Shown: positions 49,904-56,779 of the stretch, in pieces
How the letters are laid out: every line of letters begins with the position of its first letter
Numbering within the stretch: position 1 is the first letter of the stretch
NCBI GenBank assembly: GCA_022448315.1
Contig: JAKVCA010000018.1
Coordinates: 62,001 to 126,000 of the forward strand
Length of the DNA stretch: 64,000 bases
Reading direction: 5' to 3'
From: Pirellulaceae bacterium
GTDB lineage: Bacteria > Planctomycetota > Planctomycetia > Pirellulales > Pirellulaceae
The notes under the pieces: model-generated
Database searches by the model: none
What the model was told of the DNA's origin: nothing
What the model saw: only the letters and a program-made list of their open reading frames with translations
Translations under genes and position numbers: made by a program

Positions 49904-50671
49904 ATGCTCGCAAAGCGTGTGATTCCATGCCTCGACGTCAACGCGGGTCGTGTGGTGAAGGGGACCAACTTCATCAATTTACGAGATGCAGGGGATCCGG
50001 TTGAGGTCGCCGCCCGCTACGAAAGGGAAGGCGCGGACGAGCTTGTATTTCTGGACATTACAGCGAGCCATGAAGATCGTGATATCATGATCGATGTTGT
50101 GCAGAGAACGGCAGAACAGATCTTCATGCCGTTGACGGTCGGAGGCGGCATCAGGAATCTAGAGGATATCCGAGCTTTACTCTCGGCTGGCTGTGATAAA
50201 GTGTCGATCAATTCTGCGGCGTGTAAAAACCCGGCATTTATTCGCGAGGCCGCATTAAGATTCGGACGCCAGTGTATCGTGGTCAACATCGACCCGAAGC
50301 GAATCCCCTCAAAGGGAGGAGAACGCTGGGAAGTCCATATCAACGGGGGGCGAATCCCGACGGGCCGCGAAGCTGTCAGTTGGGCGAAAGAGGTCGAAAA
50401 ACTCGGTGCAGGCGAGATTGTTTTGACCAGTATGGACCGCGATGGGACCAAGGACGGTTATGATGTTGAAATGACCGCCGCCGTCAGTGAGGCCGTTTCC
50501 ATTCCCGTTGTTGCCAGTGGGGGTGCAGGAAAACCTGAACATCTGGCAGATGCAATTACAATAGGAAAAGCAGACGCGGCACTCGCGGCAAGCATTTTTC
50601 ATTTTGGCGAATACACCATTCGGGGTACCAAAGAGCTGATGGCTCAGCAACACATCCCGGTTCGATTGTAG
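49904..50671 (+). CDS. hisF: Imidazole glycerol phosphate synthase cyclase subunit
   Basis: A cyclase of histidine biosynthesis, 255 residues, a (beta/alpha)8 barrel working with the amidotransferase HisH on PRFAR. Catalytic acids are D11 in [16 protein letters not shown], and a second Asp in [14 protein letters not shown]. Phosphate sites VGGGIRN and [10 protein letters not shown] are intact. No other his gene is adjacent; it is 55 bases upstream of the PilT gene and may be co-transcribed with it, which is unusual. Confidence 0.97.
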
Positions 50672-50726: not shown

Positions 50727-51932
50727 ATGGCGACGACTGACACCAATCCCAACGAAAGTGACACTTCGAATCCCGGGAACAATTCCGAATCGACTCCAAG
50801 CGATCTTAAGACGCGTCTTCTGCAAGAGCGTCCCGAACTCGAAGTCGACAAATTCTTTCGAGCTCTGGTGAAACTTGAAGGCAGTGACCTTCACATGAAA
50901 GTGGGCAACGCGCCCATCATTCGGGTGAACGGAACGCTGAAGCCGTTAAACCGGCCTCCCATCGAGGTTGAAGAAATGGTTGAGCTTCTTTTCCCGATGA
51001 TGAATGACCGAACTCGAAAGATTTTCGAGGACGAAGGCGGCTGTGACTTTGCTCATGTGGTCGAGGTCGACGGCGTTGACTGGCGGTTTCGCGTCAACAT
51101 GCTCCAACAGCTTGGCAGGATCGGCTTGGTCGCTCGCCGCGTCAACAACTTCATCCCCGATTTCGAAGGGCTCAATCTGCCGCCGGTCATCGAAAGTCTG
51201 TGCCACTACGATCAGGGAATGGTGCTGCTTGCGGGAGTGACCGGCTCCGGTAAAAGTACGACCATTGCCTCCATGCTGAACTATGTGAATCGAAACTATC
51301 GCAAGCACATCCTGACACTCGAAGATCCGATTGAGTTTGTTTTCAAGGAAGAGAAGTGTCTGATCAACCAACGAGAAGTCGGCCACGACGTCTTGGATTT
51401 CAGCATCGCGATGAAGCATGCGGTTCGAGAAGATCCGGATATCATCCTCGTGGGCGAAATGCGTGACGAAGAGACGTTTTTGACGGCGATCCATGCGGCT
51501 GAAACAGGTCACCTGGTTTTCGGAACAATTCACGCTTCCAGCGCTCCGAGTACCATCGGACGTATTCTGGACCTCTTCCCCGAGGAAATGCATGGGGCGA
51601 TTCGCAGCGCAATGGCCATGAACATGAAAGCCATCATCGCTCAGAAACTCCTCCCCTCCATTGCCGAAGGCGTGGGTCGAGTCCCAACATGCGAGGTGAT
51701 GACTCTGAATCCGACGATCAAAAAATTGATCCTGGAGGAAGACGATAATAAACTTCCCGATGCCATTCGAATTGGTGCGGAAGAAGGTATGCAGGACTTC
51801 ACCATGAGTCTCAAATCTTTGATCGACAAGGAACTGATCGATCGCCCCACAGCCTTCCAGGTCGCACCAAACAAAGATGCACTCAAAATGGCGCTCAAAG
51901 GAATCAACGTTTCTCAACCGGGCATTCTTTAA
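50727..51932 (+). CDS. pilT: PilT-type ATPase
   Basis: A hexameric type IV pilus retraction-type ATPase, 401 residues. The N-terminal PAS-like domain includes SDLHMKVGNAPIIRVNG, typical of PilT. Walker A is GVTGSGKS (170-177), the Asp box is LTLEDPIEFV, Walker B is DIILVGEMRD with Glu 244, and the His box is GHLVFGTIHASSA (H269). All catalytic elements are intact. The N-terminal ~35 residues are an acidic extension, and the C-terminus extends by about 40 residues. It is the first of a tight operon: its stop shares one base with the next start (TAATG). Confidence 0.93.
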   Translation: MATTDTNPNESDTSNPGNNSESTPSDLKTRLLQERPELEVDKFFRALVKLEGSDLHMKVGNAPIIRVNGTLKPLNRPPIEVEEMVELLFPMMNDRTRKIFEDEGGCDFAHVVEVDGVDWRFRVNMLQQLGRIGLVARRVNNFIPDFEGLNLPPVIESLCHYDQGMVLLAGVTGSGKSTTIASMLNYVNRNYRKHILTLEDPIEFVFKEEKCLINQREVGHDVLDFSIAMKHAVREDPDIILVGEMRDEETFLTAIHAAETGHLVFGTIHASSAPSTIGRILDLFPEEMHGAIRSAMAMNMKAIIAQKLLPSIAEGVGRVPTCEVMTLNPTIKKLILEEDDNKLPDAIRIGAEEGMQDFTMSLKSLIDKELIDRPTAFQVAPNKDALKMALKGINVSQPGIL

Positions 51933-53755
51933 TGTTTCAAACTCGAATGATCCCGGCCAGTCTGTTTCTGGTTGGATTGACACCGTGGCTTGCCTTCGGG
52001 CAAGAGTCCTGGCCCAACTTTTTTGTTGAGCCCGGCTCAGACCCTCACGACATGCTGCGAGGGCCAGGTTTTTACCTGGCCATGTACAAGCTGATTTCGA
52101 TTACGCTTGTCACCGTCGTCTGGGTCAAACTCGCGGCCTTGGTGAATTCGGACACGCAAATTTTTGGGGCCCGAACGGAACTGACCCCTGAAGTCTGGAA
52201 CCCGATTGTCGTCTTCGCGTTTTTCGTCAGTTTTCTGTTCATCCTTTCCTTCCCTCTTTTCCTGCTGAGTTTTCCGCTCTTTGCAGCGGCATCCATTGCA
52301 CCCTCCGTGGTTTACCTCTTTCTACGCAATGGAAAAATCTCCAAAGAAGAGCGATCCCGGATCAAAATGGAAGTTGCAGCCCGCAATGCGGGAAAAAAAG
52401 GAAAGGGAGGTGGCCCGGAAGTCATCATGGCGCCCGTGATGGCAGAGGAAGGCCCCCCCGTCGAATTCAAGCCCTCGGCACGTGACCAAAGTAGCCAGCA
52501 AGCTTGCCTGATTTCACTCCGGCAAAACATGGCCTACCCAACGTTGAAGTCGATTTATACCGACGCCATCACGCGACGTTTCGACCAGATCCTGATGAAT
52601 TACACCCGTGATCAGGTCTCCATTCGCTACCAGGTTGATGGGATCTGGCATGACATGCCAGCCATGGACCGCGAACTCGGCGATGCGATGCTCTATGGGA
52701 TGAAACAACTCGCCGGCATGAATCCGGAAGACCGCAAAAACAAACAGACAGGCTCGTTCAACGTCTCCATTCCGGGTGGGAAGAGCCGATCCCAGATTAC
52801 GTCTCAGGGCGTAAAGACGGGAGAAAAGGTCCTGATCAAGCTGATCGGTGAGAAAAAGAAGATCATGTCACTCAACGAATGTGGCATGATTCCTTCGGTC
52901 GAAGAACGACTCAAAGGCCACCTCAATGGGTCCGGTATCGTACTCGCCTCCTGCCTTCCTGGAGACGGCACGACCACGAACTGGAATGCGGTGCTCGAAA
53001 GTTCAGATCGAATTCTCAGAGACTTCAATGCGATCGTGCCTAAATCAAACGATCATGAGAACGACACTTACGTCGAGAACATTGACTTTACCTATTATGA
53101 ATCGGGCGAAGGTCAGGAGTACTCCACTCTCAAAAGCCTGCTGCTGAAACAACCCGAAGCCCTTGTACTGCCCGAACCGAAAGACCCGCAGGTCCTTGAT
53201 CGTCTGGCGGATGAGGTGGCCAACGAAAACCGTTTTGTCATCACGCGAATGGCAGCTCGTTCTTCGGCTGAAGCCATCGTACGAATTCTCACACTCAAGG
53301 TGGATCGAAGTAAATTTGCGAAGGCACTTTCCGCCGTCGTTTACCATCGCCTGGTAAGAAGGCTTTGTGACCACTGCAAGCAACCTTACCAACCCGCCCC
53401 ACAATTATTGGCCAAACTGGGACTGAAACCCGGTCAGATTGACGTGCTCTACCGAGAATGGCAACCGCCTCCACCCGAAGAATTGGTGGATGAAAAGGGT
53501 CGCCCAATCGAACCCCCTGTCTGCCCGGTTTGCGGTGGTCTTGGTTACCTCGATCGGATCGCCATTTTCGAGGTACTTGATGTCGAAGACTCCATTCGAA
53601 ATGCGATCGTCAATCAACCTCGAGTTGAGACCATCGCCAAAGCGATGCGGCAAGCGGGCCACAAAGGCCTTCAGGATGAAGGCATTAAGCTTGTTCTCGC
53701 TGGCGTAACCAGCCTGAATGAGCTTCAACGTGTCCTGAAAGCCTCACAGTCATAA
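51932..53755 (+). CDS. Membrane-anchored degenerate GspE/PilB-like protein
   Basis: A 607-residue protein related to secretion ATPases. It is unusual in starting with hydrophobic segments: a signal-like stretch (about 6-24), one near 48-70, and two within 90-131 (VVFAFFVSFLFILSFPLFLL). A cytoplasmic ATPase-like domain follows. The P-loop position reads LPGDGTTT (342-349) and lacks the Lys; the Walker B equivalent is EALVLPEPKD (409-418) without the catalytic Glu. So ATP hydrolysis is not expected. The zinc module typical of GspE/PilB is intact: C479, C482 and C531, C534. It is close in sequence to the next gene. Its role may be to dock or gate PilT or a membrane complex. Confidence 0.85.
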   Translation: MFQTRMIPASLFLVGLTPWLAFGQESWPNFFVEPGSDPHDMLRGPGFYLAMYKLISITLVTVVWVKLAALVNSDTQIFGARTELTPEVWNPIVVFAFFVSFLFILSFPLFLLSFPLFAAASIAPSVVYLFLRNGKISKEERSRIKMEVAARNAGKKGKGGGPEVIMAPVMAEEGPPVEFKPSARDQSSQQACLISLRQNMAYPTLKSIYTDAITRRFDQILMNYTRDQVSIRYQVDGIWHDMPAMDRELGDAMLYGMKQLAGMNPEDRKNKQTGSFNVSIPGGKSRSQITSQGVKTGEKVLIKLIGEKKKIMSLNECGMIPSVEERLKGHLNGSGIVLASCLPGDGTTTNWNAVLESSDRILRDFNAIVPKSNDHENDTYVENIDFTYYESGEGQEYSTLKSLLLKQPEALVLPEPKDPQVLDRLADEVANENRFVITRMAARSSAEAIVRILTLKVDRSKFAKALSAVVYHRLVRRLCDHCKQPYQPAPQLLAKLGLKPGQIDVLYREWQPPPPEELVDEKGRPIEPPVCPVCGGLGYLDRIAIFEVLDVEDSIRNAIVNQPRVETIAKAMRQAGHKGLQDEGIKLVLAGVTSLNELQRVLKASQS

Positions 53756-53783
53756 TTTGTTTCATATTTGATGGAAAACTCCG

Positions 53784-55103
53784 ATGAGTGACAAAGCTCA
53801 ACCCGTAGAACTTCCGCCGATCACGCTTTTCGCAGATGGGCCAACCGAAGAAATTCGCGAAGCCAACATGGAAGCCGTGACTCCATCACCCGGCTTTCCC
53901 GATTGCTGCTTCTTGTTGGTAGAAGCGATCGTCAAACGAGCCGACATCATCCTCATGGACTACACGCGAGATCAGGTGACCGTTCGATTTCAAATCGACG
54001 GAGTCTGGCACGACCTGCCTCCACGGGATCGAGCGTCGGGTGATCTCATGTTGGCCACACTGAAGAAATTGGCCAATCTAGATTTTCAAGAGCGTCGCAA
54101 CCGTCAAAAAGGAGAGTTTGGTGCGGAATGGATGACCAAAACCCATCGATTTGAAATCACCAGTCAGGGAGTGCGCACCGGTGAGCGTGTCGTTCTTCGG
54201 ACTGATCGCCCCAAAAAGAAACTCGAGAAACTTGAGGACCTCGGAATTCGCCCCAAATTGCTGGCCGCATTTCAAGAACTGAGTGAGGCCTCTGAGGGAT
54301 TGATCTTGTTCAGCTCTTTGCCCGGGGATGGAAAATCAACGCTTTGGCGGTGCGGTCTCAATAGCGTCGATCGCTTCACTCGCGATTATTATTCCATTGA
54401 AAGTCAGGATGCGCTGGAACCTGAGATCATCAATGTCGCCCAAATCACGTTCGACCCGAATATTGATGAGACTCCCTTGGATAAATTACCCCAACTTCTG
54501 CTTCGCCAACCGGACGTCATGTGCCTGCCCGATCTGGTCAGTGGCGAAGTCGTCAATGAGGTCTGCACAACGATACGTGACCAGCAGAAACAATTCTATG
54601 GATACATCCCCTCGCGAAGTGCACTGGAAGCCATTTTGCGAGTTCTATCTCTAAAGCCGGACCCCGCTGCATTCGCGGAATCTCTTTCGGCCGTCCTGCA
54701 CGAGCGAATTGTTAGAAAACTATGCGAGGACTGTCGGCAGCCCTACGATCCTTCCCCGCAGATGCTGGCGAAGCTTGGTATTCCGACAGGAAGAGTTCAA
54801 AAGTTCTATGATGAGTGGCGACCACCTCCACCCGAGGAACAGGTCGACGAGAAAGGCAATCCCATAGAAATTCCGGTTTGTCCCAAGTGCAACGGCATTG
54901 GTTACTATGGCCGGACGGGCATTTTCGAACTTCTCGTCATCACTGAAGAAATTCGAGAGGTGATCCGCAAAAAACCTTCTTTGGATGCTTTAACCGCGGC
55001 GGCATCGAAAGGTGGTCACATCTCGTTGAAGGACGAGGGGATTGTTTTGGTTGCCAAAGGGACCACCAGTATTCAAGAGCTCCAACGCGTCCTTAAAAAG
55101 TAG
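53784..55103 (+). CDS. Soluble GspE/PilB-like protein with partial active site
   Basis: A 439-residue paralogue of the preceding protein, without its membrane segments; the two share the ATPase-like core and the spacer RPPPPEEQVDEKGNPIEIPV. It keeps a P-loop Lys in LPGDGKSTLW (179-188). The Walker B equivalent (DVMCLPD, 244-250) lacks the usual Glu, so hydrolysis may be slow or absent. The zinc Cys are C314, C317, C366 and C369. The N-terminal domain of GspE is short. The two proteins could form a mixed hexamer. It lies 28 bases after the upstream gene. Confidence 0.85.
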   Translation: MSDKAQPVELPPITLFADGPTEEIREANMEAVTPSPGFPDCCFLLVEAIVKRADIILMDYTRDQVTVRFQIDGVWHDLPPRDRASGDLMLATLKKLANLDFQERRNRQKGEFGAEWMTKTHRFEITSQGVRTGERVVLRTDRPKKKLEKLEDLGIRPKLLAAFQELSEASEGLILFSSLPGDGKSTLWRCGLNSVDRFTRDYYSIESQDALEPEIINVAQITFDPNIDETPLDKLPQLLLRQPDVMCLPDLVSGEVVNEVCTTIRDQQKQFYGYIPSRSALEAILRVLSLKPDPAAFAESLSAVLHERIVRKLCEDCRQPYDPSPQMLAKLGIPTGRVQKFYDEWRPPPPEEQVDEKGNPIEIPVCPKCNGIGYYGRTGIFELLVITEEIREVIRKKPSLDALTAAASKGGHISLKDEGIVLVAKGTTSIQELQRVLKK

Positions 55104-55112
55104 TATTGTGCC

Positions 55113-55769
55113 ATGATGACACTCATCCTGATTTTCGTTTTCTTTGCGGTCCTTGCCGCAAGTTGGTTCATGGGACTGTGGAGCAACCTGCTTACCCTGG
55201 TGGTGTTGCTGCTGTCGGGACTCATTGCAACGAACTATTTTGAGCCGTTGGCCTCCTATTTGGACAAACCGGTCGTCGGCGGTCCGCCTGCCATCAGCGC
55301 GATGGCCACCTACACCTATCTGCTCGATTTCATTTGCTTCTGGTCATTGTTTCTGGTCAGTCTTTTCGGCCTCAGAATCACGACAGACATCCTCTCGAGG
55401 CACCGGATTCGATTCAATTACTGGGTTGAGATCGTTGGACGATCCGTCCTTTCCCTGTGGGTGGCATGGATCTTTGTTTCCATCGTTGCGTTCTCGCTGC
55501 AATTGTCACCCTTGCCCGCGGCCACCGTTCAAGCCACCCCCAACTCTCGAATGATGCTCATCGGACCGGACAGGATCTGGATCGGTTTCATGCAAAGTCG
55601 GTCACGCGGAGCTTTGGCTCGAGGCAGGTTTTCGGAAACGGGCCGACACGAAGATGACGTGGATGGAAACTATGAGCCCTTCGATTCACAAGCCGATCTG
55701 ATCTACAAGTATCACACACGGCGAGAACAACTCGAAAATCAGAAAGGCGCACTCCGGGTCAACCGCTAA
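55113..55769 (+). CDS. CvpA-like membrane protein
   Basis: An inner membrane protein of 218 residues, nine bases after the GspE-like gene. About four hydrophobic segments lie in the first ~135 residues: LILIFVFFAVLAASWFMGLW, LLTLVVLLLSGLIATNYF, FICFWSLFLVSLFGL and LSLWVAWIFVSIVAFSL. The GLWSNLLTLVVLLLSGLIA-type opening resembles CvpA (colicin V production) proteins. The C-terminal ~80 residues are soluble and polar, with an Arg/Glu-rich end. It is the last gene of the operon. CvpA function is poorly understood; it affects envelope transport in other bacteria. Confidence 0.8.
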   Translation: MMTLILIFVFFAVLAASWFMGLWSNLLTLVVLLLSGLIATNYFEPLASYLDKPVVGGPPAISAMATYTYLLDFICFWSLFLVSLFGLRITTDILSRHRIRFNYWVEIVGRSVLSLWVAWIFVSIVAFSLQLSPLPAATVQATPNSRMMLIGPDRIWIGFMQSRSRGALARGRFSETGRHEDDVDGNYEPFDSQADLIYKYHTRREQLENQKGALRVNR

Positions 55770-55993: not shown

Positions 55994-56779
55994 ATGTCCG
56001 AAACGCCCGCTCTTCCCCGCGCCGATCAGCCGACAGAAATGGATCATTACGTGCCGATTTCCGGCATGGCGATCGCGGCATTCGTCCTCTCTCTTTTCTC
56101 TCCAATCGCGCTTTATAATCCGGGTCTGGCGGTCGTTGCGATGGCTCCAGTGATCTTGGGCCTGCTTGCCAGCATCAGAATTTTCCGGTCGGCGCATCCA
56201 GTCAAGGGGCGCAGCCTCGCGGTCGCAAGCTTGACGCTTTCCATGTTTTTCATCAGTACATCCGTCATCGGCCACACCATGATGCGGAACCACCTGTCTC
56301 ATCAAGGACAAGTCCATTTCAGTGAATGGCTCGAACTGGTCGCTGAAGGAAAATTGCGTGAGGCCCATGAACTTCATCGCCAATATTCCGATCGGCAATT
56401 GCCGGGCACTGATCTGGAGGCCATCTACACCAAGGAGGTGGATGATAGTTCGACCGACGAAGAGCAAGCGGAACTGGTGGCAGTCATGTTGTCACGTGAT
56501 TTTTCACCCAAACAAGAGCTTGAGTCTTTTTTTGACAATCCACCGGTCTCAGATATTGTCGCGCATGCCAACGATGCCATCTTTGAATTCGTCAGCGTCC
56601 AAGAGGCGATTTTCAAACGACCTGATTCCGAAATCGCGATGGTCTACCGCATGACCTATCCTCAGGGGGGAGTCAATCGAGAGACGGAGTTCATGGTGCG
56701 CATGATGCGGTCACGCTATGAAGGTGGAGAATTCCATTGGCATGTTTTTGACATCAATTTCCCGCCGAGAGAGCAATAA
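55994..56779 (+). CDS. Membrane protein of unknown function (DUF4190-like N-terminus)
   Basis: A 261-residue protein. Two hydrophobic regions lie near the start (ISGMAIAAFVLSLFSPIALY, about 22-42, then VVAMAPVILGLLASI), typical of the short membrane pairs in DUF4190 proteins. A third follows (VASLTLSMFFISTSVIGHT, about 77-95). The remaining ~165 residues are acidic and soluble, ending FHWHVFDINFPP. The soluble domain is not one I know. It lies 224 bases after the CvpA-like gene, so it is probably not part of that operon. Confidence 0.7.
   Translation: MSETPALPRADQPTEMDHYVPISGMAIAAFVLSLFSPIALYNPGLAVVAMAPVILGLLASIRIFRSAHPVKGRSLAVASLTLSMFFISTSVIGHTMMRNHLSHQGQVHFSEWLELVAEGKLREAHELHRQYSDRQLPGTDLEAIYTKEVDDSSTDEEQAELVAVMLSRDFSPKQELESFFDNPPVSDIVAHANDAIFEFVSVQEAIFKRPDSEIAMVYRMTYPQGGVNRETEFMVRMMRSRYEGGEFHWHVFDINFPPREQ

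Follow-up and report, generated by a model that had tools for sequence, protein, structure and literature searches.

We wanted to establish what kind of machine is encoded by a bacterial locus in which a PilT-family ATPase stands next to two GspE-like proteins with damaged active sites and a CvpA-like membrane protein. The locus lies in a stretch of 64,000 nucleotides of a Pirellulaceae bacterium (hereafter the window; C37:62001-126000, in GenBank contig JAKVCA010000018.1, of a 5.03 Mb genome in 126 contigs), and the nearest named relatives of the window are planctomycete metagenome-assembled genomes (MAGs). When the motor ATPases of a pilus or secretion system are annotated, they are usually taken to be active. 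The operon is retained in many lineages of one bacterial phylum, and the catalytic residues of its GspE-like protein are lost in some of them and kept in others. Our preferred explanation, to which we give a probability of roughly one in two, is that an active PilT docks on a membrane-fixed, mostly non-catalytic ring of GspE fold that is accompanied by CvpA, probably with a pilus client encoded elsewhere. Known families are combined here with a loss of catalysis and a link to CvpA. In the open-licence literature, part of which was covered by title and start of abstract, no published description of a PilT/GspE-like/CvpA operon was found and no named system with this set turned up, as an earlier reading of the same DNA from its letters alone (the sequence-only reading) had supposed. 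The papers that mention CvpA together with PilT are, judged by title, comparative genomics of Pectobacterium.

The operon

The sequence-only reading had described four tandem genes separated by -1, 28 and 9 bases. We found four intact open reading frames (ORFs) at exactly these intergenic distances, each running from ATG to stop. We call the membrane-type GspE-like protein Emem and the soluble one Esol, and use E for the GspE-like protein of other genomes.

50727..51932, forward strand: PilT-family ATPase, with TIGR01420 match, catalytic residues and a conserved C-terminal tail
51932..53755, forward strand: Emem, GspE/PilB fold with an N-terminal membrane domain and degenerate ATPase motifs
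53784..55103, forward strand: Esol, soluble paralogue of Emem with a GDGKST P-loop and four Cys
55113..55769, forward strand: CvpA-like membrane protein (PF02674, 29.0 bits vs a cut-off of 29.3)

PilT is intact and its partners are degenerate

The window PilT scored 392.5 bits against TIGR01420, above the curated cut-off of 319.1. It carries the Walker A K176, the LEDPIE motif, the Walker B E244 and the His-box H269, so the earlier statement that every catalytic element is present in PilT holds. The K, E and H of PilT were intact in 82/82 loci, within the order of the compared genomes (probably Pirellulales) and beyond it. These loci come from 81 genomes, G172 being present twice: 57 are from the order or from named MAGs, 5 from families f21/f22, and 20 are distant. 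A phylum-wide search with a PilT profile gave scores that grade into canonical PilT, and for this reason we give no count. As part of the preferred explanation the window PilT would be a working motor, and by analogy with its family it may power pilus retraction.

The genome encodes another PilT at C46:57797, which is 42% identical to the window PilT. The window PilT ends in a tail (window:51879-51929, ALKMALKGI...) that is conserved in the lineage as L-K-M-x-L-K-G-I and variants, and is absent from the two other PilT-like proteins of the same genome with which it was compared.

The P-loop of Emem reads GDGTTT, with T347 at the position of the Lys, and the P-loop of Esol reads GDGKST, with K184; both motifs had been read correctly, as had the status of Esol as a soluble paralogue. 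The claim that both proteins lack the Walker B Glu stood for Esol, where it is replaced by Asp (D250, LPDLVS). It did not stand for Emem, which keeps E415 (LPEPKD aligns with VGEIRD of canonical GspE). The four-Cys module reported for both was present at 479, 482, 531 and 534 of Emem and at 314, 317, 366 and 369 of Esol. Three or four membrane segments had been proposed for Emem: hydropathy gave 3 before the core, and an AlphaFold model gave 4 helices at 51-158 (mean predicted local distance difference test score, pLDDT, 81.9; alignment of 17 sequences). The solved fold nearest to this model was the PilB core of T. thermophilus (5it5_A, Z 33.7, root-mean-square deviation 3.1, 380 aligned), followed by 5tsh_A (Z 33.5) and 5zfr_A (Z 33.4).

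Against PF00437 (T2SSE, cut-off 24.9) Emem scored 114.7 and Esol 148.8 bits. Against TIGR02533/TIGR02538 the scores were 129.2/117.7 bits for Emem and 161.1/133.2 bits for Esol, and the equivalog cut-offs of 630.25/675.65 were not reached. Among the hallmarks of GspE/PilB, the core fold is seen in the model of Emem and the four-Cys metal module in both proteins. The Walker A Lys together with the His box is found in neither, as Emem has lost both and Esol has the Lys and has lost the His.

Conservation across the order

We searched the genomes of the order with Emem and 178/196 matched at 1e-40, a count of matches whose orthology was not checked one by one. At the loci that were checked, PilT adjoins the GspE-like gene in 68/73 order genomes, which exceeds what chance would give; in the remaining five, the locus is cut by a contig end (G002), or the two genes lie apart or no such PilT is nearby (G160, G041, G050, G060). 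The 68 include 12/12 loci of family f8, which were picked by PilT; the proteins of this family have diverged to the point where the Emem search gave weak matches or none. The order hisF-PilT-E was observed in all 12 of them, and CvpA in 9 of the 11 with enough sequence. The sequence-only reading had proposed that adjacency be checked for PilT, both paralogues and the CvpA-like gene. The pairing of PilT with E was borne out, and the presence of both paralogues together was not, since it is confined to 3 genomes.

The P-loop Lys was absent from 74/74 GspE-like proteins of the order, and Leu stood in its place in 60/74, a figure that shared descent explains in part. The Walker B Glu was replaced by Asp in 39 of the 74 and was still Glu in 20, the His-box His was kept in 1, and the four Cys were kept in 70. 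This set leaves aside the Esol copies of two-copy genomes and includes the named MAGs L014-L016, which fall inside the order on trees (one tree placing them omitted 14 loci, besides repeats of the window). It omits L021, which is partial, L029, which is the same place as L119, and L057, which is the window again.

Because the Lys is absent from all 74 full ORFs, sequencing error is rejected, and a pseudogene is ruled out with it. No interruption of the E ORF was seen in any of the 30 loci L026-L055, the best-scoring matches of the Emem search of order genomes, and E retained its invariant columns. In most loci of the order E is approximately 33-43% identical to the window protein, vs 66-83% for PilT. 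Judged by its motifs, this locus keeps one ATPase constant while, all through the order, the P-loop of the partner is dead. Catalysis lost and structure kept in two copies, as first proposed, is therefore right for a partner beside a working PilT across the order and is not supported as to the need for two copies.

Intact relatives beyond the order

With an Emem profile, relatives that carry the membrane domain turned up both elsewhere in the class and among distant families. We analyzed 20 distant loci, selected for full-length E only, and in 20/20 PilT preceded E and a CvpA-family gene followed it. Intact Lys and Glu in close relatives had been named as a sign of sequence error. Such proteins were found at the orthologous position outside the order and not within it: E carried Lys, Glu and His in 19/19 proteins of f21/f22, two families within the class, and in 5/20 distant loci, where 4 of the 5 also had the Asp-box Asp. 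The remaining 15/20 had no P-loop Lys, and the four Cys were kept in 15/15. Given the intact orthologues in f21/f22 and in the 5 distant loci, a working GspE anchored in the membrane is the most likely ancestor of the dead form.

Gene trees joined the degenerate proteins of the order with the distant ones (support 95/95, and 90 with motif columns removed). On these trees a single loss is needed, but this conflicts with class membership. A tree in which the class is held together was not rejected (approximately unbiased test, AU p = 0.47) and would need two losses. Long branches may pull the degenerate E proteins together. One and the same operon has an orthologue with every catalytic residue in one part of a class and without them across another order, so that a non-ATPase role of a GspE ring can be tested directly by comparing the two. 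For the phylum, this is a widely kept operon whose role is a testable question.

Both forms were also seen side by side in one genome. In G059 (family f8), L160:9593-11272 holds an intact membrane-type GspE-like gene and a weak CvpA-like gene, and L147:1384-7936, next in row, holds hisF, PilT, a degenerate GspE-like gene, CvpA and a DUF4190-like gene.

Duplication into Emem and Esol

Most relatives examined have a single GspE-like gene at the locus. Two were found in 3 genomes only: that of the window, L014 and G172 (L029/L119). A 56-row core-domain tree placed the three Emem in one clade (100/98). The three Esol fell together with 15 soluble-type proteins of the family that are the single copies of their genomes (98/89), and Emem and Esol came together (97/94). 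This topology is explained by an ancestral duplication, after which many genomes lost the membrane copy. On this tree the Emem/Esol pair is a local, lineage-specific duplication.

The P-loop Lys was observed in the Esol of the window (K184) and of L014:9899-11215 (GDGKST/GDGKTT), the only 2 of 77 order proteins that have it. This rarity suggests that the Lys is a late regain, in a protein that has neither Walker B Glu nor His box.

CvpA and the membrane domain of E

The model of the CvpA-like protein has predicted helices at 2-18, 22-51, 68-94 and 103-131 and a less certain tail (mean pLDDT 73.8). A fold search with this model gave no solved match (best E 1.2), a result that excludes nothing. 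Among the distant relatives of the protein, the 10 that were scanned all matched PF02674 and 3 passed its cut-off. The CvpA profile had been trained on the same distant sequences that it later found; 10/20 were re-checked with Pfam in this way, and the other 10 are assigned by BLAST linkage. In L089 and L091-L105 the CvpA-like protein, as called, is approximately 350-660 residues long and consists of a membrane part and a long C-terminal region. Pfam was run on 9/16 of these long proteins, and no further domain was found over cut-off.

Genomes with only soluble E had no CvpA-family match anywhere in the genome (22/22; 16 of family f1, 4 of f10, plus those of L015 and L016). Among the membrane-type rows of the tree, CvpA was in view in 29/31; L030 ends too early to show it and was scored as CvpA-bearing in the count of losses. 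The tree contained 4 losses of the membrane domain, all of them accompanied by loss of CvpA, and 5 losses of CvpA in total. In genus g103 CvpA was not adjacent yet was found elsewhere in the genome (3/3). Among the genomes searched CvpA was never retained without a membrane-type E, and the reverse can occur. From this pattern of presence we take it that CvpA probably works together with the membrane domain of E or acts on it. Such a dependence offers a partner hypothesis for a widespread and poorly understood membrane family.

Pilus genes and likeness to known systems

The sequence-only reading had noted that no pilus genes lie nearby. This holds for the three families for which we looked: PF00482 (PilC/GspF), PF00263 (secretin) and PF01478 (prepilin peptidase) had no match in the window, while pilins were not searched for. 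PF00482 proteins, secretins, one prepilin peptidase and GspE/PilB genes are present elsewhere in the genome. PF00482 was found in 38/38 genomes tested, each of them with an E relative, so that a pilus client is available in all of these and is neither excluded nor shown. The operon as the only pilus ATPase set of the cell was ruled out, as canonical GspE/PilB and PilT genes are encoded elsewhere in the genome.

Like PilT and PilU of type IVa pili, the window PilT passes the threshold of the family, and none of its catalytic residues is missing. A precedent in which a second ATPase depends on PilT is PilU (PMC6762196, PMC6821130). The partner here differs from PilU in being GspE-like (129-147 bits against GspE models vs 14 for the PilT family), membrane-anchored and mostly non-catalytic, and the window PilT has its own C-terminal tail. 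PilB and GspE have a soluble N-terminal domain before the core. Emem shares the core fold and the four-Cys module with the extension ATPases PilB, GspE and PilF, but it has membrane helices of its own before the core, lacks the P-loop Lys and the His box, and scores far under the equivalog cut-offs. CvpA of E. coli appears in passages of PMC6705877 as an inner-membrane protein tied to colicin V export and deoxycholate resistance. The window protein resembles it as a small protein of about four membrane helices with a Pfam score at the cut-off; in contrast, its gene sits in an ATPase operon, and most of its relatives at distant loci bear approximately 150-400 extra residues.

Pili-like fibres on crateriform structures of planctomycetes are mentioned in PMC5394234, and PMC8303584 compares the structures of its strains to type IV pilus machinery. 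The term 'PilT' is absent from the main text of both. These fibres are a possible candidate for the client of the operon.

Interpretation

In the explanation that we prefer, the operon would encode one inner-membrane ATPase assembly with PilT as its working motor. Emem, whose normal ATP site is lost in the order, would be anchored by its own N-terminal helices beside the CvpA-like protein and would serve PilT as a ring, for docking or gating, and not as a second motor. Since the same subunit is fully catalytic in other lineages, the ancestral machine probably combined a PilT motor with a membrane-anchored GspE motor. In the family of the window the subunit would have been duplicated into Emem and Esol, and relatives without CvpA mostly keep only soluble forms. 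As client, a type IV pilus or a type II-like filament is likely, its platform and secretin being encoded in another part of the genome. In favour of this explanation are the adjacency of PilT and E in 68/73 order genomes and of PilT, E and CvpA in 20/20 distant loci, the intact PilT beside an E that mostly lacks the P-loop Lys but keeps the core fold and nearly always the four Cys, and the joint absence of CvpA and the membrane domain.

The genes and their motifs, the conservation, the duplication and the link of CvpA to the membrane domain are observed; the physical complex, the docking role and the client are inferred. Several observations weigh against this explanation. PF00482, being present in every genome tested, does not single out a pilus client. 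The link between CvpA and the membrane domain runs one way only, because membrane-type E without CvpA exists: G140 has no CvpA match genome-wide, a true absence, and in the f8 genus g83, which lies outside the tree used for the count of losses, G112 and G179 have no match and G116 has a weak one elsewhere. The events on the tree are also too few, as the sign test of CvpA against the membrane domain gave p = 0.25 and needs at least 6 independent events to reach 0.05. Further, 20/74 order proteins retain the Walker B Glu, and some genomes have PilT and E unlinked: G346 and G430 of f21, G041 of f10, and G160. Among 20 further loci picked by PilT, E and a CvpA match stood alongside in 5 (the CvpA match of L207 being weak, 21 bits), and PilT can therefore live without E nearby.

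The same genes could instead form a separate, pilin-free envelope machine of the phylum that PilT drives and whose membrane base is made up of the GspE-fold ring and CvpA. We consider this unlikely, though it deserves to be taken seriously. In its favour, the window has no PilC, secretin or prepilin-peptidase match and the genome has a further PilT and GspE/PilB set outside it; the window PilT is only approximately 40% identical to the other PilT and has its own conserved tail; and no same-strand families but PilT, E and CvpA were found in all 20 distant loci, whose neighbours were not scanned for pilus genes. However, PilT and PilB/GspE homologues of known function act on type IV filaments, and PF00482 accompanies E in all the genomes tested. 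A bolder form of this idea, somewhat more doubtful, is that PilT works on a membrane-fixed pseudo-ATPase ring of GspE fold as a machine of its own and not as a pilus accessory, with CvpA as channel or anchor, and that the ring switched to a non-ATPase role, possibly repeatedly, in the phylum. If true, it would provide a natural series from secretion motor to scaffold and a molecular partner for CvpA.

Two further alternatives seem improbable to us. One holds that the operon is mere synteny: downstream of hisF, a PilT paralogue would share its transcript, though no function, with a GspE relative that is drifting. The unlinked genomes named above would fit it, and E evolves much faster than PilT. 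On the other side, the order and distant lineages alike keep the genes adjacent, E is an intact ORF in L026-L055 and retains invariant columns, and CvpA was lost together with the membrane domain in 4/4 events. The other, which we find slightly harder still to accept, is that Emem and Esol bind or hydrolyse ATP through an unusual site, so that the machine has two motors throughout. The GDGKST/GDGKTT loops of Esol in the window and in L014, E415 of Emem and the retained Walker B Glu (20/74) are what it can draw on, whereas the P-loop Lys is absent in 74/74 and the His-box His in 73/74, and Esol lacks the Walker B Glu and the His box, with a Lys in 2/77 that looks more like a late regain.

Neighbouring genes

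Two flanking genes belong to the same conserved neighbourhood as the four-gene set.

49904..50671, forward strand: hisF, the upstream neighbour of PilT, with a gap of 55 bases
55994..56779, forward strand: DUF4190-like gene (PF13828, 26.5 bits vs a cut-off of 35), 224 bases after the CvpA-like gene

hisF lies immediately 5' of PilT in the 12 loci of family f8 and in other loci, and this is probably only syntenic. In L154, L155 and L158 hisF still adjoins PilT though the GspE-like gene sits elsewhere. In much of the order the DUF4190-like gene is conserved as the gene that ends the neighbourhood, and it was observed at the same place in 11/11 loci of family f8 with enough sequence; it was not found after E in L106-L118. 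A scan for promoters and terminators gave sites no more numerous than in shuffles. Just downstream, window:57136-58626 is a sulfatase-like ORF, assigned from its CSPTR motif alone, which we take to be a sulfatase signature.

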